This document shows, in pieces, positions 9,931 through 53,817 of a stretch of DNA of 64,000 bases (positions are counted from its first letter, which is position 1; the number at the start of each line of letters is the position of its first letter). The position numbers and the translations under genes are program-made. Source of the stretch: Shouchella clausii (GTDB lineage: Bacteria > Bacillota > Bacilli > Bacillales > Bacillaceae_D); the NCBI RefSeq assembly GCF_002250115.1, contig NZ_CP019985.1:2356001-2420000 (forward strand), given 5' to 3'. The notes beneath the pieces were generated by a model. The model was not told where the DNA came from. It made no database searches and was given only the letters and a program-made list of their open reading frames with translations.

Positions 9931-10482
9931 GCGTGTGTGCCCGGCATGCGCATGGGCTATAGGGTTGAAGTCCCGAACAGTGAAGGTCACTGTAACTGTT
10001 AGCCGACGACAAGGGTGTCTGGGGCGACTCAGAATCTGAAGGAAGTCCGAGGCAAACCTCCGCTCCGAGGAACACGAATCTCATCAGGCGCTTATTCTTG
10101 GATGAGGCTGCACGACAAGTCGAAGTCCTAGTGACCAAAGGGGATAGGCGTAAATGAGGCGGAGACATGGAGGGGAAGGACATGTGCTTACCCGGGGAGA
10201 TCTAGTGATCGTGCGGAACACGTTCCGTAACCACTTGTGTGAACAGGTGCTGAGACACGAGAAGTCAGCAGAAGTCATAGTACATGTCTGATCTAGACAG
10301 ACATGGAAGGACGGAATCAGGAAAGGAATAAGAGGACTTGGCGAACGCTGTACGTGTTGAAGCAGAAACATCTACGGAACCTACTCTCCCGCAAGAAGCG
10401 GTGAATCCCGCAGGGGGCCGGAGAGAGGGTGGAGCGTACAGCCACACAAGAAGACCCCTCTTATACGAAGGAGTAGAAATAC

Positions 10483-11742: not shown

Positions 11743-11745
11743 CTG

Positions 11746-11816
11746 AAACCGCCGTATACGGAACCGTACGTGCGGTGGTGTGAGAGGTCGGGGGTTAGTC
11801 GCCCCCTCCTACTCTA
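11746..11816 (+). ncRNA. Group II intron domains V and VI
   Basis: Just after the maturase stop, ACCGC ... GCGGT encloses CGTATACGGAACCGTACG, the compact domain V hairpin with a GAA-type tetraloop region. A second stem with five G and five C residues and unpaired A is placed as domain VI, followed by the 3' splice end. Boundaries are approximate. Confidence 0.7.
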
Positions 11817-12389
11817 TTAAAGAAGGGAGTAAGAAATGAGAAAATGGAGTACGGCTGTCTCTTTTCCTGGATTGATGTAAGCATGGGGGCGGTCGCCTTT
11901 GAAACGGATCGAGTCATAGGTTGACAAATGGTGGCTTTCCCCCTCGACTTCAATCGTCAGTTGTCCAGCCATAACCGTTACCGTTTCGACCACACCAAGG
12001 CGGTGTGCTTCTGATTCATAGCGGCATTGAGGCCGCAAATAACCACGGTAGCATTCCATCAGTCCTTGTGAGCGAAACAACGGCTCAGCGATGAACTCGT
12101 CATCTGAGCTGGAGAGTTTCATCGCCTTGTTGGCTCGGGCGATGGCCACATCAGCTTCAAATGATAGCAAGGCGGTAATCGGGATATGAAGTCCGTTGGC
12201 GATTTTCCAAATGACAGATAGAGTCGGGTTGCCTTCCCCTTGTTCAATTTTTAGCAATGTCAGTTTGCTGACACCAATTTGTTTGGCAAGTGCCTCGATG
12301 CTTATTCCTTTGCTTGTCCGCAATTGCCGTAGGTTTTTACCAATTTGTTTGCCGGCTTCTTGATTTTCGGCAAGCTCTTCTTTCGCCAA
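11817..12389 (-). CDS. XRE-family regulator with C-terminal cupin domain
   Basis: 190 residues from a TTG start at 12389, chosen because AAAGGAG lies eight bases before it; the longer frame upstream is an A+T-rich promoter region. Helix-turn-helix: IGKNLRQLRTSKGISIEALA, then KQIGVSKLTLLKIEQGEGNP. The C-terminal half is a cupin: GLMECYRGYLRPQCRYESEAH, VVETVTVMAGQLTIEVEGE, then SIRFKGDRPHAYINP. This is the standard cytosolic sensor-repressor of the family, where the cupin binds a small ligand, possibly an amino acid here. It is divergent from azlCD across a 28-bp perfect palindrome, so it most likely represses both. Its stop codon touches the group II intron. Confidence 0.87.
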   Translation of the reverse strand: MAKEELAENQEAGKQIGKNLRQLRTSKGISIEALAKQIGVSKLTLLKIEQGEGNPTLSVIWKIANGLHIPITALLSFEADVAIARANKAMKLSSSDDEFIAEPLFRSQGLMECYRGYLRPQCRYESEAHRLGVVETVTVMAGQLTIEVEGESHHLSTYDSIRFKGDRPHAYINPGKETAVLHFLISYSLL

Positions 12390-17653: not shown

Positions 17654-18562
17654 ATGGGGAAGCGTATCCTTTTGTTTATCGGGACAAATATCTTGGTCTT
17701 AACGACAATTATGGTCGTTTGGACGTTGGTTACATCGTTTACAGGCATAGACGGTTCGTTTGTAAGCAGCAGTGGCGCAATTCAATTTGTTCCGATCCTA
17801 ATCTTTAGTCTCATTGTCGGGTTCTCAGGCTCGTTTATTTCGCTAGCGATGTCGCGCTGGATTGCGAAAAAAATGATGAAAGTCCAGGTGCTTGATCCAG
17901 AGGGGCCGCTCAGTGCTGAACAGAAAGCGATTGTTGAAAAAGTGCACCGTTTGTCGAGGGCAGCAGGGCTGACACATATGCCGGAAGTCGGGATTTACCA
18001 ATCGGCGGAAGTCAATGCTTTTGCAACAGGCCCATCTAAAAAACGTTCTCTTGTCGCCGTATCCACTGGCTTGTTAGACGTGATGGATGACGATGCAGTC
18101 GAAGGTGTCATCGCCCATGAAGTCGCCCACGTCGCCAATGGAGATATGGTGACGATGACGTTGCTGCAAGGGATTGTGAACACATTTGTTGTCTTTTTGT
18201 CCCGTGTTTTAGCGATCGTTGTCTCACGGTTTGTGAAGCCTGAACTTCAGTTCATTGTGCAATTCCTGGCCATTATTATATTGCAAATCTTGTTCTCTAT
18301 TCTTGGCAGCCTTGTTGTCAACGCATACTCACGTTATCGTGAATATCACGCAGACAGGGGCGGCGCAGATTTGGCTGGGAAAGATAAAATGGTTCATGCC
18401 TTACATGCGTTAAAAAATTATGTGGACCGAGCGAAAGCCAATGACCACACAGATGATACAGCTGTACAGACGATGAAAATTAGTGGCGGCAACTCCGTAC
18501 TAAAGTTATTTTCAACACACCCGGATTTAAATGACCGTATTGCCCGTCTACAAGAGCGGTAG
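17654..18562 (+). CDS. htpX: HtpX membrane metalloprotease
   Basis: 302 residues, M48 family. Two N-terminal membrane helices ([20 protein letters not shown] and [20 protein letters not shown]), then the cytosolic domain with [19 protein letters not shown] and the zinc motif HEVAH at about residue 155 in [16 protein letters not shown] second hydrophobic pair follows, then [17 protein letters not shown], supplying the third zinc ligand (Glu). HtpX degrades misfolded membrane proteins in concert with FtsH. GGAGGGG lies seven bases before the ATG. It is alone and ends in a terminator. Confidence 0.93.
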
Positions 18563-18568
18563 GCGAAG

Positions 18569-18592
18569 AAAAGCCCAATTGGGCTTTTTTAT
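18569..18592 (+). terminator. Terminator of htpX
   Basis: AAAAGCCCAATTGGGCTTTT is a self-complementary stem followed by further T residues. Confidence 0.85.
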
Positions 18593-18629
18593 TTATTTGC
18601 TGTTTATGGCAAAGTGCAAAGGTATTCGC

Positions 18630-19424
18630 CTAAAGACTTAAACCAATCTTAAAAATATTTGAGATGTTGATTATAATTATAAGAATTACAGAAAAATTAA
18701 ATATTTTCTCAATGGATAAATTAGATAATTTTAAAAGGAGACTATTTCCAATAATACCTCCGATGATACCCCCGGGAATCATGACAAGCAGCATGTATAA
18801 ATTGTAGGCACCAAAGCCGGTAGTAAAAGCAACGACTAAAAGAGCTGAAATTTGCGAGAAAAATATAATAAAAATAGAATTGTATCCTGCATTTTTTGTC
18901 GTCATCGAAAAAAGCAAACATAGTACCGCTACATTTAATGGTCCTCCGCCAATCCCTATAAATGAAGACAGAAGCCCTAAAGCAAGCCCTACTAACAAAA
19001 TGATACATTTATTTGTAAGCCTATAGGACCTTGACTTATCCTTATTTTTAAAATAAATAACGATAACTAACAGCAAAAGCACTATTAAACTAGATTGAAT
19101 AATGGCCGTTATATTAGGTATGTTTAGTGAAATAGCGATTAAATTGAAAATCGCTTTCCCTAATATCCCTCCTAAAATTGATCCAAAAGCAAGAATGGAA
19201 CTCGATACTTTATTAAGCTTAATTTTTTGCTGCTTCATTTTCATGAGAGAAACAGTAGCCATTGATAGAACGGTTGTTGCAGATAAGATACTAATTGTCG
19301 GTAAGTCAAAATGTCCAAACAAGTCCAAAACAGGTTTTATAATGACGCCTCCGCCAAGACCGGCGGCTGCCCCCAGTGTTGTAGCGAGAAGGCCTATTAC
19401 AAAGTATAGCGCAAAAATAACCAT
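18630..19424 (-). CDS. TauE/SafE-family anion (sulfite/sulfonate) exporter
   Basis: 264 residues, about eight membrane spans, with two family repeats: GLLATTLGAAAGLGGGVIIK near the N-terminus and GLALGLLSSFIGIGGGPLNV in the second half. TauE/SafE proteins export sulfite, sulfoacetate or related organosulfur anions. GGAG lies seven bases before the ATG. Base composition is much more A+T-rich than the genes to the left, as in the following sulfatase genes. It is divergent from the GntR gene of the sulfatase-PTS locus, so disposal of sulfate or sulfite freed by the sulfatase is the likely job (inference). Confidence 0.88.
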   Translation of the reverse strand: MVIFALYFVIGLLATTLGAAAGLGGGVIIKPVLDLFGHFDLPTISILSATTVLSMATVSLMKMKQQKIKLNKVSSSILAFGSILGGILGKAIFNLIAISLNIPNITAIIQSSLIVLLLLVIVIYFKNKDKSRSYRLTNKCIILLVGLALGLLSSFIGIGGGPLNVAVLCLLFSMTTKNAGYNSIFIIFFSQISALLVVAFTTGFGAYNLYMLLVMIPGGIIGGIIGNSLLLKLSNLSIEKIFNFSVILIIIINISNIFKIGLSL

Positions 19425-19616
19425 TAACTCCTCCTATACTTGCACGCTGTTGATCATTTGTATTTTATCAAAGTAAAAGTGGTTTACATAATACCGATAA
19501 GTTATAGGATATAAGCAAAGGTTATGATCGCTAATGGTTTTTTGGAGGGAGAATGGTGAACTCGCTTTAAATTTGCTATATTGAAGATATAACATGTGAA
19601 CGTGGAGGTTAATCTG

Positions 19617-20339
19617 TTGTCTCAAAAGCCTAAAAGAATTGCGAAATATAAAAGGATTGAAGAATATATACTTGATAAAATAAAGAGCGGAGAATATACG
19701 AAGGGACAATTAATTGAGACTGAACAAGAATTAGTCGATAAATTTGGCGTTAGTCGAGTAACTGTACGACAGGCTACGAATAATCTTGTCGCAAAGGGCT
19801 ATTTATCAAGAAGTCAAGGCAGCGGCACGTATGTATCGAGCTCTCAAATTGTTGGTAGAACAACGAATGTGAAGAGTTTTACAGAAGAAATGAAGGAAAT
19901 GGGGAAAGTTGCCAGTACGGAAATAATTGAATTTAAAATAACGTCTGCTAGCCAAGAGATCGCTCATAAATTACGAATCGAGACAGGCAGTCCTGTTTAT
20001 TTTATTAAAAGGCTTCGAAAAGCAGATGACATTCCTATGATGCTCGAGTCAACTTACATGAGTGTAAAGGAATATCCTGACCTCTCCTATGAGGATATGA
20101 CGAAGTCCAAATATAAGTATATTGAAGAAGTGAAAAATCAGATCATCGATCATTCTCACCATGTTGTTGTGCCCATTATGCCTACAGAGGAGATTATAAA
20201 CTATTTTAACTATGACCCAGATCAACCGCTAATAAAATTATTAAACACCACCTTCTTATCGAATGGAAAAGTAATGGATTATACAGAAGTGATCCTGAAT
20301 TCCGAGAAGTATCAATATCAGTCGATAAGAGCCAAATAA
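19617..20339 (+). CDS. GntR/HutC-family regulator with UTRA ligand domain
   Basis: 240 residues from a TTG start at 19617, eight bases after GTGGAGG. Winged helix: YKRIEEYILDKIKSGEYTKG, then ETEQELVDKFGVSRVTVRQA and GYLSRSQGSGTYVSS. UTRA domain: FKITSASQEIAHKLRIETG, SPVYFIKRLRKADDIPMMLE. The sub-family usually binds a sugar phosphate or amino acid derivative and represses a neighbouring catabolic operon, as NagR/YvoA does with GlcN-6-P or GlcNAc-6-P. Here it sits between the exporter and the PTS operon and probably senses the phosphorylated substrate (inference). It has its own terminator. Confidence 0.88.
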   Translation: MSQKPKRIAKYKRIEEYILDKIKSGEYTKGQLIETEQELVDKFGVSRVTVRQATNNLVAKGYLSRSQGSGTYVSSSQIVGRTTNVKSFTEEMKEMGKVASTEIIEFKITSASQEIAHKLRIETGSPVYFIKRLRKADDIPMMLESTYMSVKEYPDLSYEDMTKSKYKYIEEVKNQIIDHSHHVVVPIMPTEEIINYFNYDPDQPLIKLLNTTFLSNGKVMDYTEVILNSEKYQYQSIRAK

Positions 20340-20400
20340 TTTGTATTAACAAATGTGCGAGACTATTTGTATGTGAATTGTATAATTAGCTTAATTTGTT

Positions 20401-20435
20401 AAGGCATTCGTCTATTATGACGGATGCCTTTATTT
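20401..20435 (+). terminator. Terminator of the GntR gene
   Basis: AAGGCATTCGTC (20401-20412) pairs with GACGGATGCCTT (one G-T pair), followed by TATTT. Confidence 0.75.
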
Positions 20436-20604
20436 AACGGTTTATTTTTTTAAATAAATGGAATGATAAAGCTGTACCATAGTCTGAATGATTGTCGCAA
20501 GACTTGAGAAGGCGACCAGATTTTAACGGAAGGAGAAATAGAGCAAAGCGTGAGTTGCCATTTTATACAATAAAAAAATCATTAACACATAAAAATAAAT
20601 TGTA

Positions 20605-20710
20605 TTGACATATTTAAAGAATTTGATACTATGTTTATAGCTAATGAGTGATGGCTTCCTTTGAATTTTTAAGAAGAGTTCGTTTTTTTAGTTGAATGAA
20701 AGCGATTGCT
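20605..20710 (+). promoter_or_regulatory. Promoter of the PTS-sulfatase operon, with a downstream cre-like site
   Basis: TTGACA (20605-20610), a 16-base spacer and TACTAT (20627-20632) make a good SigA promoter. TGAAAGCGATTGCT at 20697-20710 matches the cre consensus except at two positions, so catabolite repression by roadblock is possible. I could not identify a clear GntR operator dyad in the stretch between. Confidence 0.6.
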
Positions 20711-20753
20711 TCATAAGCTACATGTCACTTCTAAGGGAGAAAGGGGAATGGAG

Positions 20754-22331
20754 ATGAAAGATTTACTGATGGGTTTTGGACAAAAACTGGGTAAAGCGAT
20801 TTTGCTCCCAGTAGCAATCCTTCCAGTAGCAGGTTTATTACTTGGAGTATCATCAGCATTATCTGGACAAGCAGTAATTGACACTTATCCAGTTCTAGGA
20901 AACACGGTTTTGCAAGCGATTTTACAAATTATGAATGCAGCGGGTTCAGGTGTATTTAATGCACTCCCTCTTATATTCGCAGTAGGTATAGCGATAGGGT
21001 TAGCTAAAAAAGAAAAGGGCCCTGCTGCTTTAGCGGCTGTTGTTGGTTATTTCGTGTTAATTATTACAATTAATTCTTTATTAACGATTACTGGCGATAT
21101 AGCCCCGCCAGATGCGGACCCTAGGGCTTTCGGGCAAGGCTCACAGTTTGGCGTCTTGACGCTTCAAATGGGAGTGTTTGGAGGAATTTTAACAGGCATT
21201 GTCACTGGTTTCATTCATAATCGTTTTTACAATATAAAGTTGCCTGAAATGCTTGCTTTCTTTGGAGGATCTAGATTCGTTCCAATTGTTAATACATTTG
21301 TATTCCTCATTGTTGGAGCAATGATGTATATAATCTGGCCGTTTATTGGGAGTGGCATCGCTTCATTTGGAGAATTTGCTACAGGGCTAGGCACACTAGG
21401 ATCATTTTTATATGGCTTGATGTTACGTACATTGTATTTGTTTGGTCTTCATCATGTCTTTTATTTACCGTTCTGGACGACTGCGGCGGGTGGCACGTTA
21501 GAAGTTGGGGGACAAGTGTACGAAGGATTCCAAACCATCTTTTTGGCGCAATTATCTGACCCTGAGACGACTAAATTCTTCGGGAACTTAGCGTTGTTCA
21601 ATAGTGGCCGGTACTTGCATATGATGTTTGGGATGCTTGGGATCGTATTTGCCATGTATAAGGCCATTCCTGCTGGACCGAAGAGAAAAGCAACTGCAGG
21701 CTTTTTGTTATCTGTTGGCCTAACAGCGTTTGTTACTGGGGTGACAGAACCCATTTCATTTGCTTTATTATTTGCTTCACCTATTTTGTTTGCTGCAGAG
21801 GCTCTTTTATTTGCGCTTAGCTTTGTTTTAGCGAGTCTAGCAAACATTACAATCGGCTCAACTTTCTCAGCGGGGTTAGTTGAATTCCTTTTATTTGGAG
21901 TATTCCAAGGAAACGATAAAACAAATTTCCTGTGGGCCATTCTTTTAGGGATTCCAGTTGCCATCGTTTACTATTTTGTATTTAAGTTTTTAATTTTAAA
22001 GCTAAATGCGAAAACTCCTGGCCGTGATGACGAAGAGGTTACAGAGCAGGAAAGCGCTCATCAAGCTTCTCATGCAGATGGACAAGCAAAAACAATCATT
22101 GAAGGCTTAGGTGGATTCGAAAACATTACGGAGATCGACAACTGTGCGACTAGATTAAGAGTAAGTGTGGTCAAACCAGATAAAATTAACGCCAGCCTTT
22201 TAAAGCAAACGGGTGCCATGAACACGGTGGTAAGGGGCAAAGCTATTCAAGTTATCTATGGACCAAAGGTAAATATTATTCGCGGAGAAATAGACGATTA
22301 TATCCAAGACAATAATATTAAACATTTGTAG
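20754..22331 (+). CDS. PTS transporter subunit IICB, glucose/N-acetylglucosamine family
   Basis: 525 residues. IIC domain (about 1-400) starts LLMGFGQKLGKAILLPVAIL and contains the sugar-site region GVTEPISFALLFASPILFA. The IIB domain follows a polar linker (DDEEVTEQESAHQASHADGQ), with the phosphorylated cysteine in DNCATRLRV at about residue 464. It imports and 6-phosphorylates a hexose-type sugar. The IIA domain is separate (23776). ATG 20754 is preferred over 20748 because AAAGGGG is seven bases upstream of it. The family covers glucose, GlcNAc and amino-sugar derivatives; the sulfatase context suggests a sulfated amino sugar. Confidence 0.92.
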   Translation: MKDLLMGFGQKLGKAILLPVAILPVAGLLLGVSSALSGQAVIDTYPVLGNTVLQAILQIMNAAGSGVFNALPLIFAVGIAIGLAKKEKGPAALAAVVGYFVLIITINSLLTITGDIAPPDADPRAFGQGSQFGVLTLQMGVFGGILTGIVTGFIHNRFYNIKLPEMLAFFGGSRFVPIVNTFVFLIVGAMMYIIWPFIGSGIASFGEFATGLGTLGSFLYGLMLRTLYLFGLHHVFYLPFWTTAAGGTLEVGGQVYEGFQTIFLAQLSDPETTKFFGNLALFNSGRYLHMMFGMLGIVFAMYKAIPAGPKRKATAGFLLSVGLTAFVTGVTEPISFALLFASPILFAAEALLFALSFVLASLANITIGSTFSAGLVEFLLFGVFQGNDKTNFLWAILLGIPVAIVYYFVFKFLILKLNAKTPGRDDEEVTEQESAHQASHADGQAKTIIEGLGGFENITEIDNCATRLRVSVVKPDKINASLLKQTGAMNTVVRGKAIQVIYGPKVNIIRGEIDDYIQDNNIKHL

Positions 22332-22391
22332 TCGGAGAGATCGAGGCTTTCGCCATAAATGAATGTTCGGGATCTGCAAAAAAGGAGTTTT

Positions 22392-23774
22392 ATGATGAAG
22401 AAGAATGTTATTTATATACACACACATGATAGCGGAAAGGTTTTAAGCCCGTATGGATATGACGTACCTACGCCATCGCTGCAGAAATTTGCTGAAGACG
22501 CAACCATTTTTAGGCAGGCGTATTGCGTAGGGCCTACATGTTCACCGAGCAGAGCTGGATTATTGACAGGCATGTACCCTCATAGTAATGGGATGTATGG
22601 ATTATCCCAGAGAGGATTTAAGCTTCATGATTATAATCAGCACTTAGTGAACTTTTTAAAAAAAGAAGATTATTTTACCGTGTTATGTGGCATTCAGCAT
22701 GAGGCTGGCAGTTATATCGATCACGATAAAGGTGCGAAAATAATTGGCTATGATCAAGATATCACTTCTGATAATACAGGGTTGTCGGAACAAGAGCTTG
22801 TAAAATGGGATTATGAAAACGCTCGTCAAGTTCGACAATGGCTGCAGCAATCTGACAAGAAAAAACCATTCTTTTTATCCTATGGGATGTTTGCTACTCA
22901 TCGGAAATTTCCTGAAGAGGCACATGAAGACGACCGTTCGTATGATTCGAAATATGTGATGCCACCATATCCAGTGCCAGACAATAAGGAAATAAGAGAG
23001 GACTATACAGGCTACCTTAACTCTGCGACTTGGGTGAATGCTTCTTTTGGTTTAGTCATTGAGACATTAAAAGAAGAAGGCCTATATGATAATTCGATCA
23101 TTATATTTACGACAGACCATGGCCTTGCTTTTCCATTTAGTAAATGTACTTTATATGATTCAGGCATTGGCGTTTCATTGATTATGCGTGTTCCTGAAAG
23201 TTCGATGATTGGTGAGGAAGTGGAAGGGTTGGTTTCACAAGTAGACGTTTTCCCTACTTTATGCGACTTATTGGAGATCGAACAGCCTTCTTACTTACAA
23301 GGCGTTTCTTTTGCAGAGATGTTCCATATGAAAAATCATGAAGTAAGAGAAGAAGTATTTGCTGAAATCAACTATCACACCGCTTATGAACCTGCCAGAA
23401 GCATCCGTACAAAAAGGTATAAGTATATAAAATTTTATGATGATGACTATTTGAAAGTAAACCGCACGAACATTGATAATTCCCCGACTAAAACGCTCAT
23501 GCATGAAAATGGGCTGGAAGAAGTTGTGAAACCAAAAGAAGGGCTTTATGATTTGCTTTTCGATCCAGGTGAAAGAAATAACCTAGCTGGTGATAAACGT
23601 TATGAGAAAGTGCTAAATGACATGCGCAAAAAGCTCCATGATTATCAAACAAAAACAGAGGACCCGATTTTAACGGGTCATTTCAAAGTGAGAGAGGGCT
23701 GGAAAGTTAACAAATCAGAAACCTATAACCCTAGTTCAAAAGATCCTCATGATTATTTAAAGGTAGGTGAATAA
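22392..23774 (+). CDS. Cytosolic type I sulfatase, sulfamidase (N-sulfoglucosamine sulfohydrolase)-like
   Basis: 460 residues with no signal peptide: the N-terminus goes straight into the first beta strand, KNVIYIHTHDSG, carrying the metal-ligand Asp. The sulfatase signature CSPSRAGLLTG places the formylglycine precursor at Cys50, in the C-x-P-S-R context required by formylglycine-generating enzyme. LLTGMYPHSNGMYGLSQRG strongly recalls human sulfamidase (SGSH, ...GLPQHQNGMYGLHQ). IIIFTTDHGLAFPFSKCTLYDSG provides the C-terminal metal and sulfate ligands. Expected reaction: hydrolysis of a sulfate ester or N-sulfate from a sugar phosphate inside the cell. AAAGGAG precedes ATG 22392. It lies between the two PTS genes. 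Confidence 0.85.
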   Translation: MMKKNVIYIHTHDSGKVLSPYGYDVPTPSLQKFAEDATIFRQAYCVGPTCSPSRAGLLTGMYPHSNGMYGLSQRGFKLHDYNQHLVNFLKKEDYFTVLCGIQHEAGSYIDHDKGAKIIGYDQDITSDNTGLSEQELVKWDYENARQVRQWLQQSDKKKPFFLSYGMFATHRKFPEEAHEDDRSYDSKYVMPPYPVPDNKEIREDYTGYLNSATWVNASFGLVIETLKEEGLYDNSIIIFTTDHGLAFPFSKCTLYDSGIGVSLIMRVPESSMIGEEVEGLVSQVDVFPTLCDLLEIEQPSYLQGVSFAEMFHMKNHEVREEVFAEINYHTAYEPARSIRTKRYKYIKFYDDDYLKVNRTNIDNSPTKTLMHENGLEEVVKPKEGLYDLLFDPGERNNLAGDKRYEKVLNDMRKKLHDYQTKTEDPILTGHFKVREGWKVNKSETYNPSSKDPHDYLKVGE

Positions 23775-23775
23775 T

Positions 23776-24249
23776 ATGTTTGGCCTATTTAATAAAAAAA
23801 GCAATACATTTGTCAGTCCAGCTTCAGGCACGATTAAATTAATTGATCAAGTGAAGGATGAGACATTTTCCCAAAGAATGATGGGGGATGGATTTGCAAT
23901 TGAACCCACTTCTTCGCACATCTATGCTCCCATTAATGCAAAAGTCGATTTTGTTTTTCAAACCAACCATGCTGTTGGGTTAAGGACAGATGACGGGAAG
24001 GAGATTTTAATACATGTGGGCGTAGACACAGTTCGCCTAGAGGGCAAAGGGTTTACTGCTCATATTAAAGAAGGGCAAAGGGTAAAAGCAGGCGATCTGT
24101 TATTAACCGTTGATTTTGATTCGATTCAAGCACAGGTCCCATCAACAGATATCATTTTGATTTTTACAAGTGGTGAAGCTTGTACCGTGAACAATCCTGA
24201 CAGTAAAGTTGACGCTCGGCAGGAAAATATTATCCAACTTTCAAAATAA
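23776..24249 (+). CDS. PTS IIA component, glucose family
   Basis: 157 residues from ATG 23776, one base after the sulfatase stop. The fold markers are FVSPASGTIKLIDQVKDETF, GDGFAIEPTSSHIYAPINAK, NHAVGLRTDDGKEILIHVGV and GQRVKAGDLLLTVDFD. His65 and His80 are the two active-site histidines; His80 accepts phosphate from HPr and passes it to the IIB Cys of the neighbouring IICB protein. A free-standing IIA next to a IICB without its own IIA is complementary, so the two form one transporter. It is translationally close to the sulfatase. Confidence 0.92.
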   Translation: MFGLFNKKSNTFVSPASGTIKLIDQVKDETFSQRMMGDGFAIEPTSSHIYAPINAKVDFVFQTNHAVGLRTDDGKEILIHVGVDTVRLEGKGFTAHIKEGQRVKAGDLLLTVDFDSIQAQVPSTDIILIFTSGEACTVNNPDSKVDARQENIIQLSK

Positions 24250-24256
24250 AGACCGT

Positions 24257-24293
24257 TCTCGCTTTCTCCTATTTGTGAGTGAGCGAGATTTTT
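24257..24293 (+). terminator. Partial terminator between PTS IIA and the epimerase gene
   Basis: TCTCGCT (24257-24263) pairs with AGCGAGA (24282-24288), followed by TTTTT. It probably sets lower expression of the epimerase and formylglycine-enzyme genes relative to the transporter. Confidence 0.7.
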
Positions 24294-24344
24294 CGCATAT
24301 TCATTTAGAATGGATTTTTGAAAATGGGAAAGGGGAGATAGCGA

Positions 24345-25082
24345 ATGGAATCATTAAGCGCAAAACAGCAGATTATCATTGAACGTTTAAAAAATGGTCT
24401 TATCGTGTCTTGCCAAGCAAAAAAAGAGGATCCAATCTATTTGCCAGGTATCATTACGAAAATGGCTGAATCGGCAATATGGGGAGGGGCGGCCGGACTG
24501 CGAATAAATACGCCTGAACATATTAAAGAAGTGCGTAAAATAACGGATCTGCCGATTATTGGGTTATGGAAGCAGCATACGAAGGGTAATCCTGTCTTTA
24601 TTACACCTACTATCGAAGCAGTAGAAGAGGTCATAGAGGCAGGAGCAGATATTGTGGCAATAGACGCCACTGATCGGGCCAATGCACAAGGAGAAAAAGC
24701 GTATCTTCTTATTGATAAAATTAAACAGAAGTACCCCAATACGATCATTTTAGCTGATATTCGCAATGAAAAAGAAGCTGTTTTGGCATTAGAGCAAGGC
24801 GCCCATATGGTAGCGCCGACTTTATATCGATTTAACGATCATCCAAAATCAATTGACAGTCCAGATTTCGAGATGTTGGCTAAAATCGTTCGCGTAACAC
24901 AAGGGAATGGCGTCGTATTAATGGAAGGCAAAATTAATACCCCTGAAGAGGCAATCGAAAGTCTTTATTTAGGTGCGTATGCGGTAGTAGTTGGAAGTGC
25001 CATAACTCGCCCCCATCTAACGACATTAAGATTTACCAACAAAATAAACAAATATGAACATAAGATGCCACTCTATTATTAA
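24345..25082 (+). CDS. NanE-like (N-acylmannosamine-6-phosphate 2-epimerase family) enzyme
   Basis: 245 residues, TIM barrel. GLIVSCQAKKEDPIY, WGGAAGLRINTPEHIKEVRK, LPIIGLWK (Lys equivalent to the catalytic one), AGADIVAIDATDRANAQGEK, then VVLMEGKINTPEEAIESLYL (catalytic Glu) and AYAVVVGSAITRP match the NanE family along the length. The phosphate-side loop differs: GAHMVAPTLYRF replaces the usual DIVGTTLSGYT. NanE interconverts ManNAc-6-P and GlcNAc-6-P. Here it may epimerise a different amino-sugar phosphate, perhaps still sulfated or free-amino. AAAGGGGAG precedes the start. It is part of the sulfatase locus. Confidence 0.78.
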   Translation: MESLSAKQQIIIERLKNGLIVSCQAKKEDPIYLPGIITKMAESAIWGGAAGLRINTPEHIKEVRKITDLPIIGLWKQHTKGNPVFITPTIEAVEEVIEAGADIVAIDATDRANAQGEKAYLLIDKIKQKYPNTIILADIRNEKEAVLALEQGAHMVAPTLYRFNDHPKSIDSPDFEMLAKIVRVTQGNGVVLMEGKINTPEEAIESLYLGAYAVVVGSAITRPHLTTLRFTNKINKYEHKMPLYY

Positions 25083-25117
25083 ATAAGTAAATATCCTTCA
25101 ATGAAGAGGTGAGAGAA

Positions 25118-26059
25118 GTGGACCATAACAAAAGCTGTTGCTCCGTATCTAGGTCAACGATTAGGAACAATGCTAATATAGAAAAGGACGGGACCAATAG
25201 AACGTTAAGTACGAAGCAAAAACATCGTGATGACATGGTTTACCTTGAAGGCGGCAACTTCTTAATGGGAACCGAAGATCCAGATGCTAATCCATTTGAT
25301 CAGGAAGGACCCGTTCGGGATGTTACGGTTCGCCCGTTTTACGTTGATAAATTTGCTGTCACAAATCGGCAATTTCAAGAATTTATTAGCGATACGAACT
25401 ATCAGACAGATGCCGATACATTTGGCTGGTCTTTTGTTTTCCATCTCTTGCTGTCTGACAAAACAGCTGAGAAAGTGAAACAGGTACCTGTCCAAACCCC
25501 ATGGTGGCGTGTGGTGGAGGGAGCAACTTGGAATCACCCTGAAGGTCCTGATTCTTCTATTGAAGATCGAATGGATCATCCAGTTGTCCATGTTTCGTGG
25601 AATGATGCGAAAGCTTATTGTGAATGGGCTGGGAAAAGGCTCCTTTTGGAAGAGGAATGGGAATATGCTGCGAGAGGGGGGCTTGTTCAGCAAAGGTATC
25701 CATGGGGAAATACGCTCCATCCTAATGGAGAACACCGTTGCAATATTTGGCAAGGAGAGTTTCCGACTAAAAATACAAAAGAAGACGGCTATCTAGGGAC
25801 AGCCCCTGTACATTCTTTTCCCGCAAACGGTTATGGTTTATATAATATGTCAGGGAATGTGTGGGAATGGTGTGAAAACTGGTTTGATAAAAACAAGGTA
25901 AGTGGAAAGCCTACAAATAGGCCAAAAGCGATGCGAGGCGGGTCCTATTTATGTCATGATTCATACTGTAACAGGTATAGGGTCGCTGCTCGAAGTTGTA
26001 ATACGCCAGACAGTTCATCAGGCAATGTCGGGTTTCGTTGCGCAGTAAGTGCAGAATAG
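25118..26059 (+). CDS. Formylglycine-generating enzyme (SUMF1/FGE family), aerobic type
   Basis: 313 residues from GTG 25118, five bases after GAAGAGGTGA. Body: DMVYLEGGNFLMGTEDPDAN, RPFYVDKFAVTNRQFQEFI, HPVVHVSWNDAKAYCEWAGK, RLLLEEEWEYAARGG. The C-terminal active site GGSYLCHDSYCNRYRVAARS keeps both copper-binding cysteines in the same spacing as human FGE (GGSYMCHRSYCYRYR), so this is a true oxygen- and Cu-dependent enzyme, not a general SUMF1-like protein. It converts the sulfatase CxPSR cysteine to formylglycine in the cytosol. The N-terminus contains KSCCSVSRS, a C-x-x-S-R sequence resembling its own substrate motif. It is in the same locus as its client at 22392. Confidence 0.93.
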   Translation: MDHNKSCCSVSRSTIRNNANIEKDGTNRTLSTKQKHRDDMVYLEGGNFLMGTEDPDANPFDQEGPVRDVTVRPFYVDKFAVTNRQFQEFISDTNYQTDADTFGWSFVFHLLLSDKTAEKVKQVPVQTPWWRVVEGATWNHPEGPDSSIEDRMDHPVVHVSWNDAKAYCEWAGKRLLLEEEWEYAARGGLVQQRYPWGNTLHPNGEHRCNIWQGEFPTKNTKEDGYLGTAPVHSFPANGYGLYNMSGNVWEWCENWFDKNKVSGKPTNRPKAMRGGSYLCHDSYCNRYRVAARSCNTPDSSSGNVGFRCAVSAE

Positions 26060-26163
26060 AAAGTAGAAACCTAGCCAAAGGTAGTGTCTATTAATTGATG
26101 TAATTCTCTCGTTCTTAGAAACATCGTTGGGTTTAGTAAGGTTCATTTCAGGTAAGGGTGTGA

Positions 26164-27054
26164 ATGATCGTCTTGAATATAGAGAGTTTACGAATGTTTT
26201 GTAAAGTTGCAGACGGAGGGAGCATCAGTCAGGCTGCGCGCTTAAGTTTTGTAACCCAGCCAGCGGTAACAAAACAAATTCGCCAACTAGAGAACAGTTA
26301 TGGGACGGCTTTATTTGATCGAACTGAAGGAAAAATGTTGCTATCAGAAGCAGGAGAACAATTATATCCCTATGCAAAGGAAATAGTGGAAAGTTATGAT
26401 AACTCGGTACAAGCTCTTCAAGAAGTGATAGGGATTCGAGATCCTAAACTAAACGTTGGAGCAAGCTTAACTATAGGTGAATATTTGCTTCCTGGCCTAT
26501 TGGGAAACTTTCAACAAAAACATGCCGATATTAAATTCAGTTTATTAATTGGAAATACACCATATATATTATCGAAACTTGAAGCAAATGAAATTGATAT
26601 TGCGCTCATAGAGGGACGCGTCAATCAGTCTGAATATAGCCTGAAAAAATTTGCAGTTGATGAGCTGATTCTCGTTACATCTTACAACCATCGTTGGAAG
26701 GAAAGAGAATCAATTGACATTCACGAACTTACAGAAGAAAAAATGCTTTGGAGAGAAAAGGATTCAGGAACAAGATTGATTGTTGAGAGCGCATTAACTG
26801 ACTACGGTATTTTGGAACAAATCGAAAATGTGATGGAGCTTGGCAGTATGCAGTCGATAAAAAGTGCCGTGGAAGCAGGGCTTGGAATAAGCATTCTGCC
26901 TAGAATAACCGTTAGCAAGGAACTGCAGTTCAAGATTTTAAGAGAAGTGCCGATTAAAGGATTTACTCTGATGAGGGACTTATGGCTCGTGCAAAAGAAA
27001 CAGCGTTTTAAAAAGAGCGCACACATTCATTTCTATGATTTCTTGCTTCAATAA
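26164..27054 (+). CDS. LysR-family transcriptional regulator
   Basis: 296 residues. Winged helix: NIESLRMFCKVADGGSISQA, ARLSFVTQPAVTKQIRQLEN, then SYGTALFDRTEGKMLLSEAG. Ligand domain: LNVGASLTIGEYLLPGLLGN, IGNTPYILSKLEANEIDIALIEG and SAVEAGLGISILPRITVS. The GASxTIGEYLLP form is typical of the CysL/CbbR-like branch, several of whose members handle sulfur metabolism (known for CysL of B. subtilis). It follows the formylglycine enzyme by 104 bases on the same strand, shares the low G+C and may regulate sulfite/sulfate handling or TauE export; this is inference. A terminator follows. Confidence 0.85.
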   Translation: MIVLNIESLRMFCKVADGGSISQAARLSFVTQPAVTKQIRQLENSYGTALFDRTEGKMLLSEAGEQLYPYAKEIVESYDNSVQALQEVIGIRDPKLNVGASLTIGEYLLPGLLGNFQQKHADIKFSLLIGNTPYILSKLEANEIDIALIEGRVNQSEYSLKKFAVDELILVTSYNHRWKERESIDIHELTEEKMLWREKDSGTRLIVESALTDYGILEQIENVMELGSMQSIKSAVEAGLGISILPRITVSKELQFKILREVPIKGFTLMRDLWLVQKKQRFKKSAHIHFYDFLLQ

Positions 27055-28906: not shown

Positions 28907-30745
28907 TTAGTCAAGAAAGCGTAGTAGATCGCCAAGTAAAATCTCATCAGAGAGCGCCAACTGCTCTCTGACAATTTCTTGATCTTTGGCACAGTATGTT
29001 TCCTCTACAGGCTGTTCGGTTTTACGGTCATAACAAGTGTGGTCTGCATACAAATACTCCTCAGACACAAATCGGCCATCGCGAAAGATAATCGGCACGT
29101 CGCTAGGGCGGGTGAACAAGTCGTAGCTAAACGTTAAGTTTTCATTGGCAGAAAGGCCTAAGAGTTGAAGCAGTGTCGCATGAATATCGATTTGTCCACC
29201 TTCCGTTTCAATCGTTTGTCCAGTTTGCCTAGGAATATGGATAATGAGTGGTACTTTTTGCAAGTCCAAATGAGTTAGTGTGTTTTCTTCTTGGTCAAGC
29301 AATGTGTGAACGCCGCTTTCATATTGGCGGGAAATCCCGTAATGGTCGCCGTATAACAAGAAGATGGTATCTTCATAATGGCCTTCTTTTTTGAGATCGG
29401 CAAAAAACTGCTCAATCGCTTCATCTTGATAGCGAATGGTCGTCACATAGCGATTGACTACATCGACTTCTGTATCAGCTGGATCAATTGACTGGTCCTC
29501 TTGTTCAAGCAAGAACGGGAAATGGTTCGTCAAAGGGATAAATTTAGCCATATATGGCGATTTCAACGTGTTAAGATGGTCAATCGACTGGGCAAAAAAG
29601 GGTTTGTCTTTCAGCCCATAGTTGACACTCAACTCATCTGTTACCTCATAATCGTCTTTTGAGAAAAACTCGTCATATCCTAGCGTTTCATACATCGCTT
29701 CACGGTTCCAAAAAGTCGCGTCATTGGCGTGGAAAGCGGCCGATGTATACCCTTGTTCTTTCAAGATCTGAGGAAGGGAGCGAAATGTATTTTCATAACG
29801 GCGCACAAAGGCCGAGCCACTGGAAAGCGGGTAAAAGCCGGTATCGAGCATAAACTCCATATCCGATGACTTGCCTTGTGCGGTTTGGTCATAAATGTTT
29901 GGAAAATAAAAGCTCTCTTCGATCAATTGGTTTAAGAACGGCGTCAATTCTTCGCCATTTACCGTTTGCCCGATTACGAAATTTTGCGTGGACTCAAGGC
30001 TAATCATCACGATATTTTTTCCCTTTGCGAGTCCAAAAACATCCACGTCAGGAGAAGGTTTTTCCTGCATTTCCGCTTTTATGTCAGAAGCGGTTGCTTC
30101 GTTGGCCCACGATTCTTTCAGCGGCGCACTAATGCCTTGGGCGAGATTGACCAATTGATAATTATAGAGGCCAAGAGAAGCGACAAGTTCATCTCTAGCG
30201 TAGTCGGTCTTAAGCAAATACGGGTTTTGAATATGGCTGACGCCTAGTGCCACCACAAGCGCCACCAAACCTGACCAGGCAAATCCTTTTCCGTTTGGGC
30301 GCTCGATCGGCTGTCGTTCTATTTTTGCGCTAATCGTGAACCAAGCAACGACAAATAAGTCGATGAGCAATAACAAATCATAAGGTGAAACGAGCTCGGC
30401 TGTGCTGGATCCGAGTCCGCCAACATTGCTGAATTGCAGGAAAACGGACACAGTCAGAAAATCAATGTAAAACCGGTAGTATAAAAGCGTCCCAAACAAC
30501 AACGCTGTGCATAAGAGATAAACAAGCAAAAACGCGAGCGGGCGAACATGCTTGCTAAAGTAAAAACTAAAGCCAAGCAAGAGCATAAGTGAACCGAGAG
30601 GGCCGATAAGCAACAAAAAGATGTCGACGCCATTTTGGATAGGCAACGAAAAAGCCGTTGCCGACACAATCACGGTTTTCAACCAAAGTGCAACAACACC
30701 TAAAGGAATAAGATGTTTTGCTAAAAAATGTTTAAGTTCATTCAT
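28907..30745 (-). CDS. LtaS-like (lipoteichoic acid synthase family) transferase with Ser at the nucleophile position
   Basis: 612 residues: five N-terminal membrane helices, then an extracellular sulfatase-fold domain. VMISLESTQNFVIG holds the first metal Glu; QTAQGKSSDMEFMLDTGFYP corresponds to the LtaS nucleophile loop GQGKTSDSE, with Ser replacing the catalytic Thr. FLLYGDHYGISRQY supplies the final Asp-His pair. LtaS enzymes transfer glycerol phosphate from phosphatidylglycerol to a lipid or growing teichoic acid outside the cell. Its start overlaps the fusion gene's end by eight bases. Context with a PlsY paralogue and an acyltransferase-aminotransferase suggests an unusual lipid head group (inference). 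Confidence 0.82.
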   Translation of the reverse strand: MNELKHFLAKHLIPLGVVALWLKTVIVSATAFSLPIQNGVDIFLLLIGPLGSLMLLLGFSFYFSKHVRPLAFLLVYLLCTALLFGTLLYYRFYIDFLTVSVFLQFSNVGGLGSSTAELVSPYDLLLLIDLFVVAWFTISAKIERQPIERPNGKGFAWSGLVALVVALGVSHIQNPYLLKTDYARDELVASLGLYNYQLVNLAQGISAPLKESWANEATASDIKAEMQEKPSPDVDVFGLAKGKNIVMISLESTQNFVIGQTVNGEELTPFLNQLIEESFYFPNIYDQTAQGKSSDMEFMLDTGFYPLSSGSAFVRRYENTFRSLPQILKEQGYTSAAFHANDATFWNREAMYETLGYDEFFSKDDYEVTDELSVNYGLKDKPFFAQSIDHLNTLKSPYMAKFIPLTNHFPFLLEQEDQSIDPADTEVDVVNRYVTTIRYQDEAIEQFFADLKKEGHYEDTIFLLYGDHYGISRQYESGVHTLLDQEENTLTHLDLQKVPLIIHIPRQTGQTIETEGGQIDIHATLLQLLGLSANENLTFSYDLFTRPSDVPIIFRDGRFVSEEYLYADHTCYDRKTEQPVEETYCAKDQEIVREQLALSDEILLGDLLRFLD

Positions 30746-32351
30746 AACTGCGGACCGCCTGTTCTTGTTTCATTTTTGCATAAATAGTAGTAATGGTTTG
30801 AACTGCTTTTTTGGCAAGGCGAGCGTCGATGTGGCCCATTAATGCTAGCTGGAACCAATTGCGTTCAAGTAAATAGGTGCTTTCATAACTGACATGAATG
30901 CCGTGTTGTTTGAGACGGTCGCCAAATGCTCTTGCAGACAAGTGGCCAGAAAGATCAACTGTAATAATAGCAGGAGAAAAAGACTCGCCGCGCACTACTG
31001 TAAAGCCATTCGCTTCTAGTATAGCCAATATGGACTCGCATAAAGAAGCATATGGCGGAGCTGGATGGTTTAGTGCTTCATTTAGTGCATGCAAGCCATT
31101 CGAACAATGGGTAAACGGTATACTTTCTGCTTGTTCATATGTGCCAATGTCAAGGTAGGCAGGCAACGAATCATTTGCGAAAGCTGGTTCGTCATGGAAG
31201 ACGAGGGCAAGTCCGGGATAAGCTGCCAATCCTTTGCCGCTGACTGAACTAGCAAGCCAGACGCCAGATAAGTCAACTGGAACAGAGCCGATGCTGCTGC
31301 ATGCGTCAAGGCATAAACGAACGCCATGTTTGCAGCAAATCTCTTTAAGGCGGTCAAGAGCATAAAGGCGCCCCGTCGACGTTTCACAATGGACAGTCCA
31401 AAGCCAGCCAATCTCAGAATCGGCCTCTAGCCATTTCTCAATGTTTTCGTAAGGTACCGGGCCAGTTTGGGAATGGGCCAATTGGTCAAATGATAACCCC
31501 CACCGCTCTGCTTGTTTGACTAACCGCTCGCCAAATTCACCGCTTGTGAGAATGACACCTTTTTGATGTAGCGTCGACAGTTGAGCTGCTACCATCTCAT
31601 TGGCAAGTGTCCCTGTCCCAACTGCAAGTTCGACATAACGACCATTTGTTAACTGGAGCAGCTTTTCTTTCGTTTGTGCCATCACGTGATGGAATTCTTC
31701 GGCCCGGTGGGATACAGGAGCCTTTGCCCAAGCCTCTTGCACGGCTTTCAATTGTGTGACGGGCCCAGGCAAGAACAACTGCTGGACAGGCGCTTGCTGC
31801 CGTTCCATTAACTTTTGAAACGCTTTGGTTGAAGCTTTGAAATTTTCTTCTGTTAAATACATCGGTTGGTAACGGGCTTCCTCAGACCCGACAAGGGGCC
31901 CAAACGGCACAAAGCCAATTCGCTTATAAAGCTTTAATTGCCGTGTTGTTCCTGATATAAGGGCCATCGTATACCCTTGTTTTAGACAATAAGAAACGAG
32001 TTGCTCGCAGAGGCGGTAAAAAACAACCCCTTTGCGGTATGCTTGTTTAATGGAAAGCAGCCTAATTTCGCATAGCTTTTCATCGCTGTTTATGTAAGAG
32101 TCAAGGTTTTCTAATTTACTGTCTAACGAAAATGGGCGCGTGTCCCGAACGGATATCATGCCGATAATTTCTTGATCGCGCTTGGCAATTATATAAATGT
32201 TTTCGTCATTAAAGCGGTCAATGAGCCTCTTATCTGTATTTGGGCGATGCTGCGGGATCTCTTCGACAAAAGTGTCGTAATTTAACTTATGAATTTGATT
32301 GAATTCTTCATCTGAATCAGCAATCTTGTATGTAATCGCAGATGTGTCCAT
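30738..32351 (-). CDS. GNAT acyltransferase - class V aminotransferase fusion
   Basis: 537 residues in two parts. Residues about 1-165 form a GNAT-like domain: IYIIAKRDQEIIGMISVRDT, CEIRLLSIKQAYRKGVVFYR, KLYKRIGFVPFGPLVG; it is most like FeeM/AHL-synthase-type N-acyltransferases. Residues about 190-537 form a fold-type I, class V PLP enzyme: VELAVGTGTLANEMVAAQLS, TVHCETSTGRLYALDRLKEI, LCLDACSSIGSVPVDLSGVW (Asp to PLP nitrogen) and SSVSGKGLAAYPGLALVF (PLP Lys). It resembles 2-aminoethylphosphonate or serine-glyoxylate transaminases. ATG 32351 follows AGAAAGGGG, which lies in the last codons of the PlsY-like gene one base upstream. The substrate is unknown. Confidence 0.8.
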   Translation of the reverse strand: MDTSAITYKIADSDEEFNQIHKLNYDTFVEEIPQHRPNTDKRLIDRFNDENIYIIAKRDQEIIGMISVRDTRPFSLDSKLENLDSYINSDEKLCEIRLLSIKQAYRKGVVFYRLCEQLVSYCLKQGYTMALISGTTRQLKLYKRIGFVPFGPLVGSEEARYQPMYLTEENFKASTKAFQKLMERQQAPVQQLFLPGPVTQLKAVQEAWAKAPVSHRAEEFHHVMAQTKEKLLQLTNGRYVELAVGTGTLANEMVAAQLSTLHQKGVILTSGEFGERLVKQAERWGLSFDQLAHSQTGPVPYENIEKWLEADSEIGWLWTVHCETSTGRLYALDRLKEICCKHGVRLCLDACSSIGSVPVDLSGVWLASSVSGKGLAAYPGLALVFHDEPAFANDSLPAYLDIGTYEQAESIPFTHCSNGLHALNEALNHPAPPYASLCESILAILEANGFTVVRGESFSPAIITVDLSGHLSARAFGDRLKQHGIHVSYESTYLLERNWFQLALMGHIDARLAKKAVQTITTIYAKMKQEQAVRSYE

Positions 32352-32352
32352 A

Positions 32353-32898
32353 TCAATGCCCCTTTCTGTGAGCAAATAGCACAATCATGAGCAAAAGCGC
32401 AAACAAGCCAGCAAGGCTGTATGCAGTTTGGCAAAGTAATGTGAGCGGGATTGTACAAATGGCAATGAAGCCTGCTTCCGTAAATGATCGTTTGCAAGCA
32501 CGCAAAACGGCAAGTGTTAGGCCGCATACGACTAATGCAAGGGGGGCAAGCACAAGCACAGCCGCCAAATAAACGACGACTCCTTTTCCACCTGAGCGCT
32601 GCAACTGCAGCGGCCAAATATGGCCAATGAGAATGGCCAAAGCCATTGCACCAATAACGATATCAGAAACGTCTAGCCATATTCGCCCTATGGTCAATGG
32701 AATGATTGTTTTTAACGCATCGATGATGACTGTGCCGATAAACGCTTTTTTTCCAAAAATACGTCCAGCATTTCGGGCTCCAGCGTTCGTGCTTCCCAAA
32801 GTGCGAATATCTTGTTTGTATTTCATATGTCCGATATAGTAAGCCCCGTTTATACAGCCACATGCATAGGATACTGCAACGAGTAGGAAAAATGCCAT
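32353..32898 (-). CDS. PlsY-family (glycerol-3-phosphate acyltransferase) paralogue
   Basis: 181 residues, about five membrane helices. Motif 1 reads GSTNAGARNAGRIFGKKA (canonical GSGNxGATNxxR), motif 2 GHIWPL, motif 3 LQRSGGKGVVVYL. These three cytosolic loops form the active site of acyl-phosphate:glycerol-3-phosphate acyltransferases. The Thr-Asn-Ala-Gly variant of motif 1 and the lack of a parC/parE neighbour distinguish it from the housekeeping PlsY. As first gene of an operon with an acyltransferase-aminotransferase fusion and an LtaS-like protein, it may acylate a different phosphate-bearing acceptor (inference). Confidence 0.82.
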   Translation of the reverse strand: MAFFLLVAVSYACGCINGAYYIGHMKYKQDIRTLGSTNAGARNAGRIFGKKAFIGTVIIDALKTIIPLTIGRIWLDVSDIVIGAMALAILIGHIWPLQLQRSGGKGVVVYLAAVLVLAPLALVVCGLTLAVLRACKRSFTEAGFIAICTIPLTLLCQTAYSLAGLFALLLMIVLFAHRKGH

Positions 32899-52217: not shown

Positions 52218-52256
52218 GGGCAATACGAAAGAGAGCAGAGCGTCGAGTGGGTACCG

Positions 52257-52303
52257 ACCCCAAGAAGTTAGAGTAGGAAAATTAACTTCTTGGGGTGTTT
52301 TTA
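52257..52303 (+). terminator. Terminator of the GH88-ABC operon
   Basis: ACCCCAAGAAGTTA and TAACTTCTTGGGGT form a perfect 14-bp stem with a 12-base loop, followed by GTTTTT. Confidence 0.9.
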
Positions 52304-52453
52304 TGGCTAAATATCTAATTTCTTTCAAATTGAAGAATGGGTAAAGATTAACGAAACAGTTGCGGGCATACAAAACGTATAATTATCTGTAAATGATTTC
52401 CTCTTGGTCTTCCCCCGGTTCCGAATGTATGCCTGATTGTTTACGACGCCTAC

Positions 52454-53791: not shown

Positions 53792-53817
53792 ATGTATTTA
53801 CTATTATTTCGCTTCGA

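Follow-up and report, generated by a model that had tools for sequence, protein, structure and literature searches.

Why should a bacterium keep, side by side, genes for sugar import by a phosphotransferase system (PTS), a sulfatase without a visible export signal, an enzyme that matures it, an amino-sugar epimerase and an anion transporter? This question is raised by eight neighbouring genes in a 64,000-nucleotide window, the whole stretch of DNA analysed here, from Shouchella clausii (contig NZ_CP019985.1, positions 2,356,001 to 2,420,000), which belongs to a 4.5-Mb chromosome. All eight genes named in an earlier note on this DNA were verified at the coordinates given there, each above its curated Pfam cut-off (Table 1). 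The locus is probably a carbon-catabolic operon for PTS import of a small sulfated sugar, followed by cytosolic desulfation, epimerisation and export of the anion. Its most interesting part, and the part that appears to be new, is a NanE-like protein in which the catalytic residues are kept and the acetamide pocket is replaced.

A scan of genome contigs gave 72 loci, five of which (L004-L008) carried a sulfatase 69-97% identical to that of the window. They come from Shouchella tritolerans, S. clausii AKU0647, two strains of Cytobacillus gottheilii and Evansella caseinilytica. The order gntR-IICB-sulfatase-IIA-nanE-FGE, where FGE is the formylglycine-generating enzyme, was kept in all five loci and three genera, and because it recurs in this way the gene set is not due to chance. 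The genes tauE and lysR stood beside the cluster in two of the five, L004 and L005, both from Shouchella (the surroundings of L007 were compared by BLAST with window proteins only). The conserved gene order on which the earlier note depended was thus found for the six-gene core, and not for tauE and lysR outside Shouchella. In the Evansella locus (L008) two extra genes lie between nanE and FGE. One encodes an anaerobic sulfatase maturase, which scored 361 bits with TIGR03942 (cut-off 349), the other a SulP sulfate permease, which scored 437 bits with TIGR00815 (cut-off 380). The cluster is rare: in the family sample of 41 genomes, only 3 gave a match to the sulfatase at E 1e-40. Sulfatase relatives were counted in 3/41 family, 8/397 order, 6/398 class and 9/398 phylum genomes; these samples overlap and include the own genome each time, and two genomes of the family sample (G039 and G038) are those of L004 and L005 and were counted once. 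Neighbourhoods were fetched for all order and class matches and for six of the eight other phylum matches (all except G812 and G1094).

The neighbours of related permeases point to where the operon came from. The closest paralogues of the IICB protein (about 50% identical) adjoin a canonical NanE gene in seven of eight loci examined, including one in the own genome, and the eighth, L090, lies beside a sulfatase; the eight were taken from 18 listed matches, the window's own excluded. Since its closest IICB paralogues stand beside canonical NanE, the operon seems to derive from an amino-sugar PTS-NanE module to which a sulfatase, a maturase and an exporter were added.

The NanE-like protein of the window scored 166 bits against the NanE Pfam family and 238 bits against PRK01130, above the cut-off of 189. 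It is one of three NanE-family matches in the own genome, the other two being canonical (243 and 228 bits). The catalytic residues Gln11, Arg40, Lys63, Asp124, Glu180 and Arg208 (Staphylococcus aureus numbering) were kept in all six cluster proteins, and were invariant throughout an alignment of these with 38 other rows. The acetamide pocket was replaced: Gly-Tyr-Thr was present in 38/38 other rows, and Arg-Phe-Asn or Arg-Phe-Gly was found in 6/6 cluster rows. Residue 75 was tryptophan in all six cluster rows and in one of the 38 others. The rows for comparison were chosen as neighbours of IICB genes or for their high scores with the window protein; of about 150 NanE matches, the 29 best-scoring were aligned, together with two from the own genome and seven from IICB-NanE pairs, and as L104 and the L176 pair are one gene, the 38 rows represent 37 distinct genes. 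The signature V-G-[SG]-A-X-T-R was present as VGSAITR, and the NanE signature X-P-X-I-G-I-X-K-Z (Z basic) was not matched by the window protein.

Counting along the alignment with Clostridium perfringens NanE, the tyrosine of Gly-Tyr-Thr corresponds to Tyr149 of S. aureus NanE, which contacts the methyl group of the acetamide (PMC8482478). A positive charge seems to have been added to the sugar pocket of the NanE-like protein, and such an alteration suggests an unusual substrate. In BT4656 an arginine takes the place of the hydrophobic acetyl pocket and binds the N-sulfate (PMC10154612); by analogy between unrelated enzymes, this parallel would support the idea of an N-sulfate. The changed acetamide pocket argues that the epimerase may see a still-sulfated sugar, and the order of events in the earlier note, desulfation and then epimerisation, is not adopted here. 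Through the changed epimerase the question of the substrate can be put to a direct test. To our knowledge no enzyme that epimerises a sulfated sugar phosphate at C2 has been described; no search was made for one.

The likeliest start of the sulfatase was found to be the ATG at 22392/22395, with AAGGAG upstream, and a start at 22359 is disfavoured. Its product begins with MKKNVIYIHTHD, in which no leader was seen when the N-terminus was read by eye, and a strand of the core sheet begins at once in the model (residues 4-12). A secreted sulfatase was dropped for want of a leader seen by eye. Most carbohydrate sulfatases that have been studied in depth work outside the cytosol. The motifs CSPSR (Cys49-Ser-Pro-Ser-Arg53) and SNGMYGL were visible by eye, in agreement with the earlier description of a signal-less sulfatase carrying CSPSR and NGMYGL. 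The adjoining FGE gene is the sole PF03781 match in the own genome, and its product matched FGE proteins of solved structure with E values from 1e-101 to 1e-111. Cys282 and Cys287, which we take to be the copper-binding pair, aligned with the cysteines of solved FGE, in agreement with an aerobic enzyme that has both cysteines. The remaining outline of the earlier note (PTS uptake, a cytosolic formylglycine (FGly) sulfatase, an anion transporter and a link to amino sugars) is supported by this context, by the sole FGE adjoining the sulfatase and by NanE.

The active site of the sulfatase was compared among 24 rows of the window family. Asp12, Cys49, Arg53, His102, His169, His242 and Lys250 were constant in all 24; Asp241 and His11 were each present in 23, with Glu for Asp241 in one row and Asp for His11 in another. 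Human SGSH, a lysosomal enzyme (PMC4014121), resembles the window protein in its fold, SGSH_C domain, CxPSR motif and NGMYGL stretch, and in having equivalents of Arg74, His125, His181, Asp32 and Asp273. Its metal and active-site set Asp31, Asp32, Asp273 and Asn274 corresponds to His11, Asp12, Asp241 and His242, its Lys123 is replaced by Ile, and its Arg282 by Lys. Lys250 occupied the Arg282 position, as aligned with the table of PMC4014121, and the GxxH motif lacked the lysine equivalent to Lys123, both in 24/24 window-family rows. Arg282 is found in many sulfamidase sequences, and Lys stands there in the O-sulfatases compared (PMC4014121). With Arg282 changed to Lys, Lys123 gone and the metal ligands changed, the label 'sulfamidase' used in the earlier note was dropped; the SGSH_C domain was likewise considered as proof of substrate and dropped. 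The enzyme is not filed here as a sulfamidase, and N-desulfation by it, while possible, is not established.

The protein scored 127 bits with the Sulfatase family and 78 bits with SGSH_C (PF16347, cut-off 29). Its closest solved relative was S1_8A, and SGSH when a profile search was used. In a tree, 19 window-family rows came together with S1_8A and SGSH (99/98), apart from 14 other S1 sulfatases. The near-copies L004, L007, L091 and L097 and the fragment L174, five of the 24 rows of the window family, were omitted from this tree, and L011 and L049 were excluded because a CxPxR/CxAxR motif was not found. The S1_8 activities named in print are at C2, with N-sulfoglucosamine (GlcNS), xylose 2-sulfate and galactose 2-sulfate as substrates (PMC12549532, PMC10154612).

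From the observed gene content, conservation, pairing with a maturase and replacement of the canonical acetamide pocket a pathway can be drawn, in which we infer all reactions, the identity of the substrate and which of the third and fourth steps comes first. A PTS phosphorylates its sugar at C6. IICB and IIA would first import a sulfated monosaccharide and phosphorylate it there, which needs a free 6-hydroxyl, so a 6-sulfated substrate was dropped. FGE would secondly convert the CSPSR cysteine of the leaderless sulfatase into formylglycine in the cytosol, and the sulfatase would thirdly strip sulfate from the sugar 6-phosphate. Fourthly, the NanE-like enzyme would invert C2 of the sugar phosphate, probably with the C2 substituent still anionic. 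The desulfated hexosamine 6-phosphate would pass to NagB, or to NagA and NagB, which are encoded side by side elsewhere in the genome, and TauE would finally export the excess sulfur anion. The operon would be controlled by GntR and probably also by CcpA, acting at a catabolite-responsive element (cre).

We propose that the substrate of the pathway is a C2-sulfated hexose or hexosamine 6-phosphate, because the published S1_8 enzymes attack C2 and because NanE, whose pocket is here changed, epimerises at that carbon. These two arguments, from the relatives of the sulfatase and from the altered pocket at C2, are partly independent and each indirect. They make C2 the likeliest position of the sulfate, with an N-sulfo-hexosamine as first candidate and a 2-O-sulfo-hexose as second. 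In its most specific form, a new route for a C2-sulfated hexosamine of the N-sulfo-glucosamine or -mannosamine type, in which the PTS forms the 6-phosphate of the sulfated sugar, a NanE descendant with an arginine that holds the C2 sulfate epimerises it at C2, and an S1_8-like cytosolic sulfatase with a metal site resembling that of phosphonate monoester/phosphodiester hydrolases (PMH) takes off that sulfate, the proposal is tentative and, as a whole, rather doubtful.

Several observations weigh against the pathway or against sulfate at C2. We know of no natural N-sulfomannosamine. In single-sequence searches S1_8A (128 bits) was barely separated from an exo-L-Gal-6-sulfatase (123 bits). In a Foldseek search with the sulfatase model SGSH ranked first, 6-O-galactose sulfatases followed close behind with S1_8C, and S1_8A came later. 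That model is weak, with a mean predicted local distance difference test score (pLDDT) of 69.5. The SGSH and S1_8A branches of the tree are long (2.2-2.3), and the tree has only two S1_8 rows. The arginine loop of the NanE-like model had a pLDDT below 50, so its side chain is unplaceable. No anion transporter was seen in L006 (C. gottheilii) or L171 by BLAST with tauE and SulP or by eye, and no NanE-like gene was present in the fetched stretches of L090, L170 and L171, three more distant loci described below. Published work points to no uniform sugar for IICB-NanE modules: growth of Listeria on N-acetylmannosamine (ManNAc) needs NanE, and deletion of the PTS genes did not stop it (PMC10667646), and a pneumococcal IICB next to NanE has been assigned to glucosamine (PMC3302838).

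The alternative that survives best keeps the same PTS route and places the sulfate at O3 or O4 of N-acetylglucosamine (GlcNAc) or ManNAc, so that an ordinary ManNAc-6-phosphate epimerase would act after desulfation and the pocket change would be cosmetic. It is unlikely, and still a serious contender: all six catalytic NanE residues are retained, the PRK01130 cut-off is passed, and the lysine at the SGSH Arg282 position is O-sulfatase-like. An ordinary epimerase would, however, join two canonical NanE genes already in the genome, and a cosmetic change is hard to reconcile with a Gly-Tyr-Thr motif altered in every cluster row and kept in every other, or with the parallel behaviour of residue 75; the printed S1_8 activities at C2 also speak against O3 or O4. 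Less probable by some way is a sulfur-scavenging operon, in which sulfate would be the sulfur source, the sugar incidental, and TauE or SulP would tune sulfate pools. Nearby sulfur-anion transporters would suit such a role, as would the LysR protein, whose scores of 226 bits for a selenium-metabolism family (cut-off 250) and 183 bits for YeiE (cut-off 480) both fall below the cut-off. The PTS, the amino-sugar epimerase, the GntR/UTRA regulator and the cre box indicate carbon use instead, and an exporter next to the sulfatase makes little sense when sulfur is scarce. That the FGly enzyme is a PMH and not a sulfatase is very improbable, since the fit of Asp12, Asp241 and His242 to the PMH metal pattern (Asp, Asp, His) rather than to the four SGSH ligands, and the loss of Lys123, are set against the SGSH_C domain, the S1_8/SGSH kinship, the sulfatase-like His102 and His169 (PMH has Thr for the first), the three unrelated families of transporters for sulfur anions or related oxyanions in the clusters, and the presence of an Asp-His pair in the sulfatase S1_8A as well.

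Sulfatases of the window family also stand with PTS genes in more distant loci. L170 carries IICB (64% identical), IIA, a sulfatase (58%), an anaerobic maturase over its cut-offs and two CHR half-transporters (PF02417, 188 and 190 bits); its IICB starts 517 bases from the contig end. L171 carries a sulfatase (51%), mannose-family IIAB, IIC and IID, and GntR; its best IIC family, AgaW, and its maturase-like protein were both under their cut-offs. L090, in a separate part of the tree, has TauE, FGE, IIA, an antiterminator, IIBC, a sulfatase (35%) and, next to the sulfatase, a LysR protein 50% identical to that of the window. PTS-linked sulfatases use glucose-type or mannose-type permeases, and all eight such rows of the sulfatase tree had a gene for FGE and/or anaerobic maturase in the fetched stretch; of the three anaerobic-maturase proteins, two pass the curated cut-off and that of L171 fails. 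The anion-transporter slot is taken by TauE (window, L004, L005 and L090), SulP (L008) or CHR half-genes (L170). Permease and maturase are exchangeable across the PTS-sulfatase loci, and three unrelated anion-transporter families occur in the clusters; this variety of PTS family, maturase and transporter supports cytosolic release of sulfate.

The PTS label, carried by eight rows of the 24-row tree, requires at least two changes, a number below that of each of 500 shuffles when near-copies are counted in. L174 (46%), on a 6.9-kb contig without a PTS gene, was treated as not PTS-linked on this tree and placed in the PTS clade for residue counts. Other family members stand beside ABC transporters, GH65 and HAD proteins, an MFS-like transporter, or no nameable one. 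A sample of 60 genomes from one other genus gave a sulfatase match at E 1e-12 in two. In the first of these loci, read by eye, four open reading frames (ORFs) resemble a mannose-family PTS, and two more resemble an anaerobic maturase and an FGE (53% for the latter); the second has a TauE-like ORF, a maturase-like ORF and an MFS-like transporter. Their sulfatases are 24-25% identical to that of the window, or 27-29% over the matched stretches. This low identity suggests that the PTS-sulfatase arrangement arose repeatedly. PTS-coupled cytosolic sulfatases with swappable maturases and transporters would be a recurring Gram-positive use of sulfated sugars. Matches to the sulfatase were also found in 29 plasmid and 4 phage records, and no PTS gene was present in the 4 and 1 surroundings read. 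Clade-specific basic residues were considered as binders of the 6-phosphate in PTS-linked sulfatases; positions 411, 437, 440 and 449 were weak candidates, three of them in the low-confidence tail of the model, and were not used.

Table 1. Genes and candidate control sites of the locus, in window coordinates.
Feature	Position	Strand	Evidence
TauE/SafE-family anion transporter, presumed sulfate/sulfite exporter	18630..19424	-	PF01925, 104 bits
GntR/UTRA regulator, presumably sugar-phosphate-responsive from its family	19596..20339	+	PF00392, 68 bits; PF07702, 118 bits
Candidate promoter TTGACA-16-TACTAT, TG before -10	20605..20632	+	promoter scan
Perfect cre (CcpA) consensus match ATGAAAGCGATTGCT	20696..20710	+	consensus scan, upstream of IICB
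PTS glucose-family IICB	20748..22331	+	PF02378, 222 bits; PF00367, 49 bits
Leaderless FGly sulfatase, SGSH/S1_8-like	22395..23774 (ORF opens 22359)	+	PF00884 and PF16347
PTS IIA, glucose type	23767..24249	+	PF00358, 163 bits; overlaps sulfatase gene
NanE-like C2 epimerase, altered acetamide pocket (Tyr161-Arg162-Phe163)	24345..25082	+	PF04131
Aerobic formylglycine-generating enzyme	25109..26059	+	PF03781, 289 bits
LysR-type regulator	26164..27054	+	LysR_substrate, 147 bits; HTH_1, 70 bits

The sulfatase and IIA genes overlap, and the other neighbours between IICB and lysR are separated by about 30-105 bases. The best NCBIfam match of IICB was GlcB (472 bits, under the cut-off of 592). Promoter-like sites in the region showed no excess over chance (25 against 25.2 expected). 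The candidate promoter block upstream of IICB was kept in S. tritolerans and both C. gottheilii strains and was degenerate in Evansella. The cre site was matched to a consensus that we assume from general knowledge; a similar sequence, TGAAAGCGGTTCCT, occurs at the same place in C. gottheilii and not in Evansella. A palindrome at 20340, TTTGTATTAACAAAT, was considered as GntR operator and is not claimed, as it has no good second copy; with up to three mismatches it was matched 7 times in the window against 5.2 expected. The best solved relative of the LysR protein is a Rubisco-operon regulator; YeiE, named above, is a sulfite-binding regulator (PMC12880088). The A+T-rich island described in the earlier note holds for about the first two thirds of the locus, where G+C measured in 2-kb steps was 37.7-39.2% (18001-24000), and not for the remainder (41.8% at 24001-26000). 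Elsewhere most steps had about 42-49%, with extremes of 40.3% (52001-54000) and 50.8% (10001-12000).

Some observations were made alongside. The whole window holds 8 perfect cre-consensus sites against 1.7 expected, a number reached in none of 100 shuffles, and it seems rich in carbon-catabolic control. At 28907-32898, on the minus strand, a row of three genes encodes a PF00884 protein of 612 amino acids that resembles LtaS by eye, a FeeM-like N-acyltransferase fused to a class-V aminotransferase, and an acyltransferase of the PlsY family; it looks like an uncharacterised lipid-modification operon. L186 (3621-9786) contains a sulfatase-like ORF with FGE-like and anaerobic-maturase-like ORFs and four ORFs resembling mannose-family PTS. 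A recurrent cluster with a 33-38% identical sulfatase was found in Bacilli (L089, L091-L093 and L096-L098, several of them near relatives). It combines an ABC sugar transporter, a LacI-like regulator, a GH65 phosphorylase, a HAD protein resembling beta-phosphoglucomutase, and FGE; Pfam was used for the GH65 and HAD proteins of L089, the rest were assigned by eye or BLAST, and for L092 part of the genes was covered. The GH65 clusters may perhaps serve a 2-O-sulfated glucobiose, one candidate being 2-sulfotrehalose, an osmolyte of haloalkaliphilic archaea (PMC3403918). Sulfotrehalose was rejected as substrate of the window operon, which has no trehalose enzyme, and is kept as a lead for these clusters. 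L175 (9606-12860) has in a row a sulfatase, an anaerobic-maturase-like protein and an MntP manganese efflux pump; the pump is notable since the metal site of the sulfatase family resembles that of PMH. L174 (479-6519) combines its 46% identical sulfatase with sigma-54 activator, SIS, KDPG-type aldolase, creatininase and phosphotriesterase-family genes, possibly another amino-sugar pathway. L187 (MT835824.1), labelled bacteriophage, has a 42% identical sulfatase amid ordinary-looking bacterial transport and regulator genes and probably represents host DNA that entered a viral data set.

Searches of openly licensed papers for PTS-coupled sulfatases with FGE or TauE, and for sulfatases of Shouchella or B. 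clausii, gave no title naming this operon, and this absence is weak evidence. Among single enzymes, the best-scoring solved relative by sequence is S1_8A of the lambda-carrageenan pathway (PMC12549532), which shares the Asp-His pair of the metal site and is interpreted in print as a monosaccharide-specific C2 sulfatase. It is marine and was cloned minus its signal peptide, hence exported, and acts on galactose 2-sulfate, not on a sugar phosphate. Bifidobacterium breve UCC2003 is reported to have an intracellular sulfatase that serves its growth on a sulfated amino sugar, GlcNAc-6-sulfate (review PMC7326374); that substrate is 6-sulfated, which is incompatible with PTS phosphorylation at C6, and no PTS is named in the passage of the review. 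For Proteus vulgaris, a review mentions putative PTS genes together with a putative sulfatase. The lmo2795-nanE operon of Listeria (PMC10667646) similarly joins PTS EIIA, EIIBC and NanE for an amino sugar, but it has an RpiR regulator, and the genes named for it do not include a sulfatase, maturase or anion exporter.

The idea of a PTS-coupled sulfatase is not new, as a pneumococcal precedent was published in 2012, presumably by McAllister et al. An island with the same list of functions, SPH1922-SPH1930, has been described (PMC3283741 and PMC3302838), so the view that such a gene set was undescribed could not be upheld. As in the window, the island has a PTS, a sulfatase, a sulfatase-modifying protein, a TauE-family protein and a sugar-type regulator, and one of its proteins is similar by HHpred to ManNAc-6-phosphate epimerase, although it is called ComA-like in PMC3302838. 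No activity on 4-methylumbelliferyl sulfate was found, according to these papers. The likeness is one of published gene lists, not of sequence, and the two systems differ in that the pneumococcal island has a lactose-family PTS and a ROK regulator, whereas the PTS of the window is of the glucose family.

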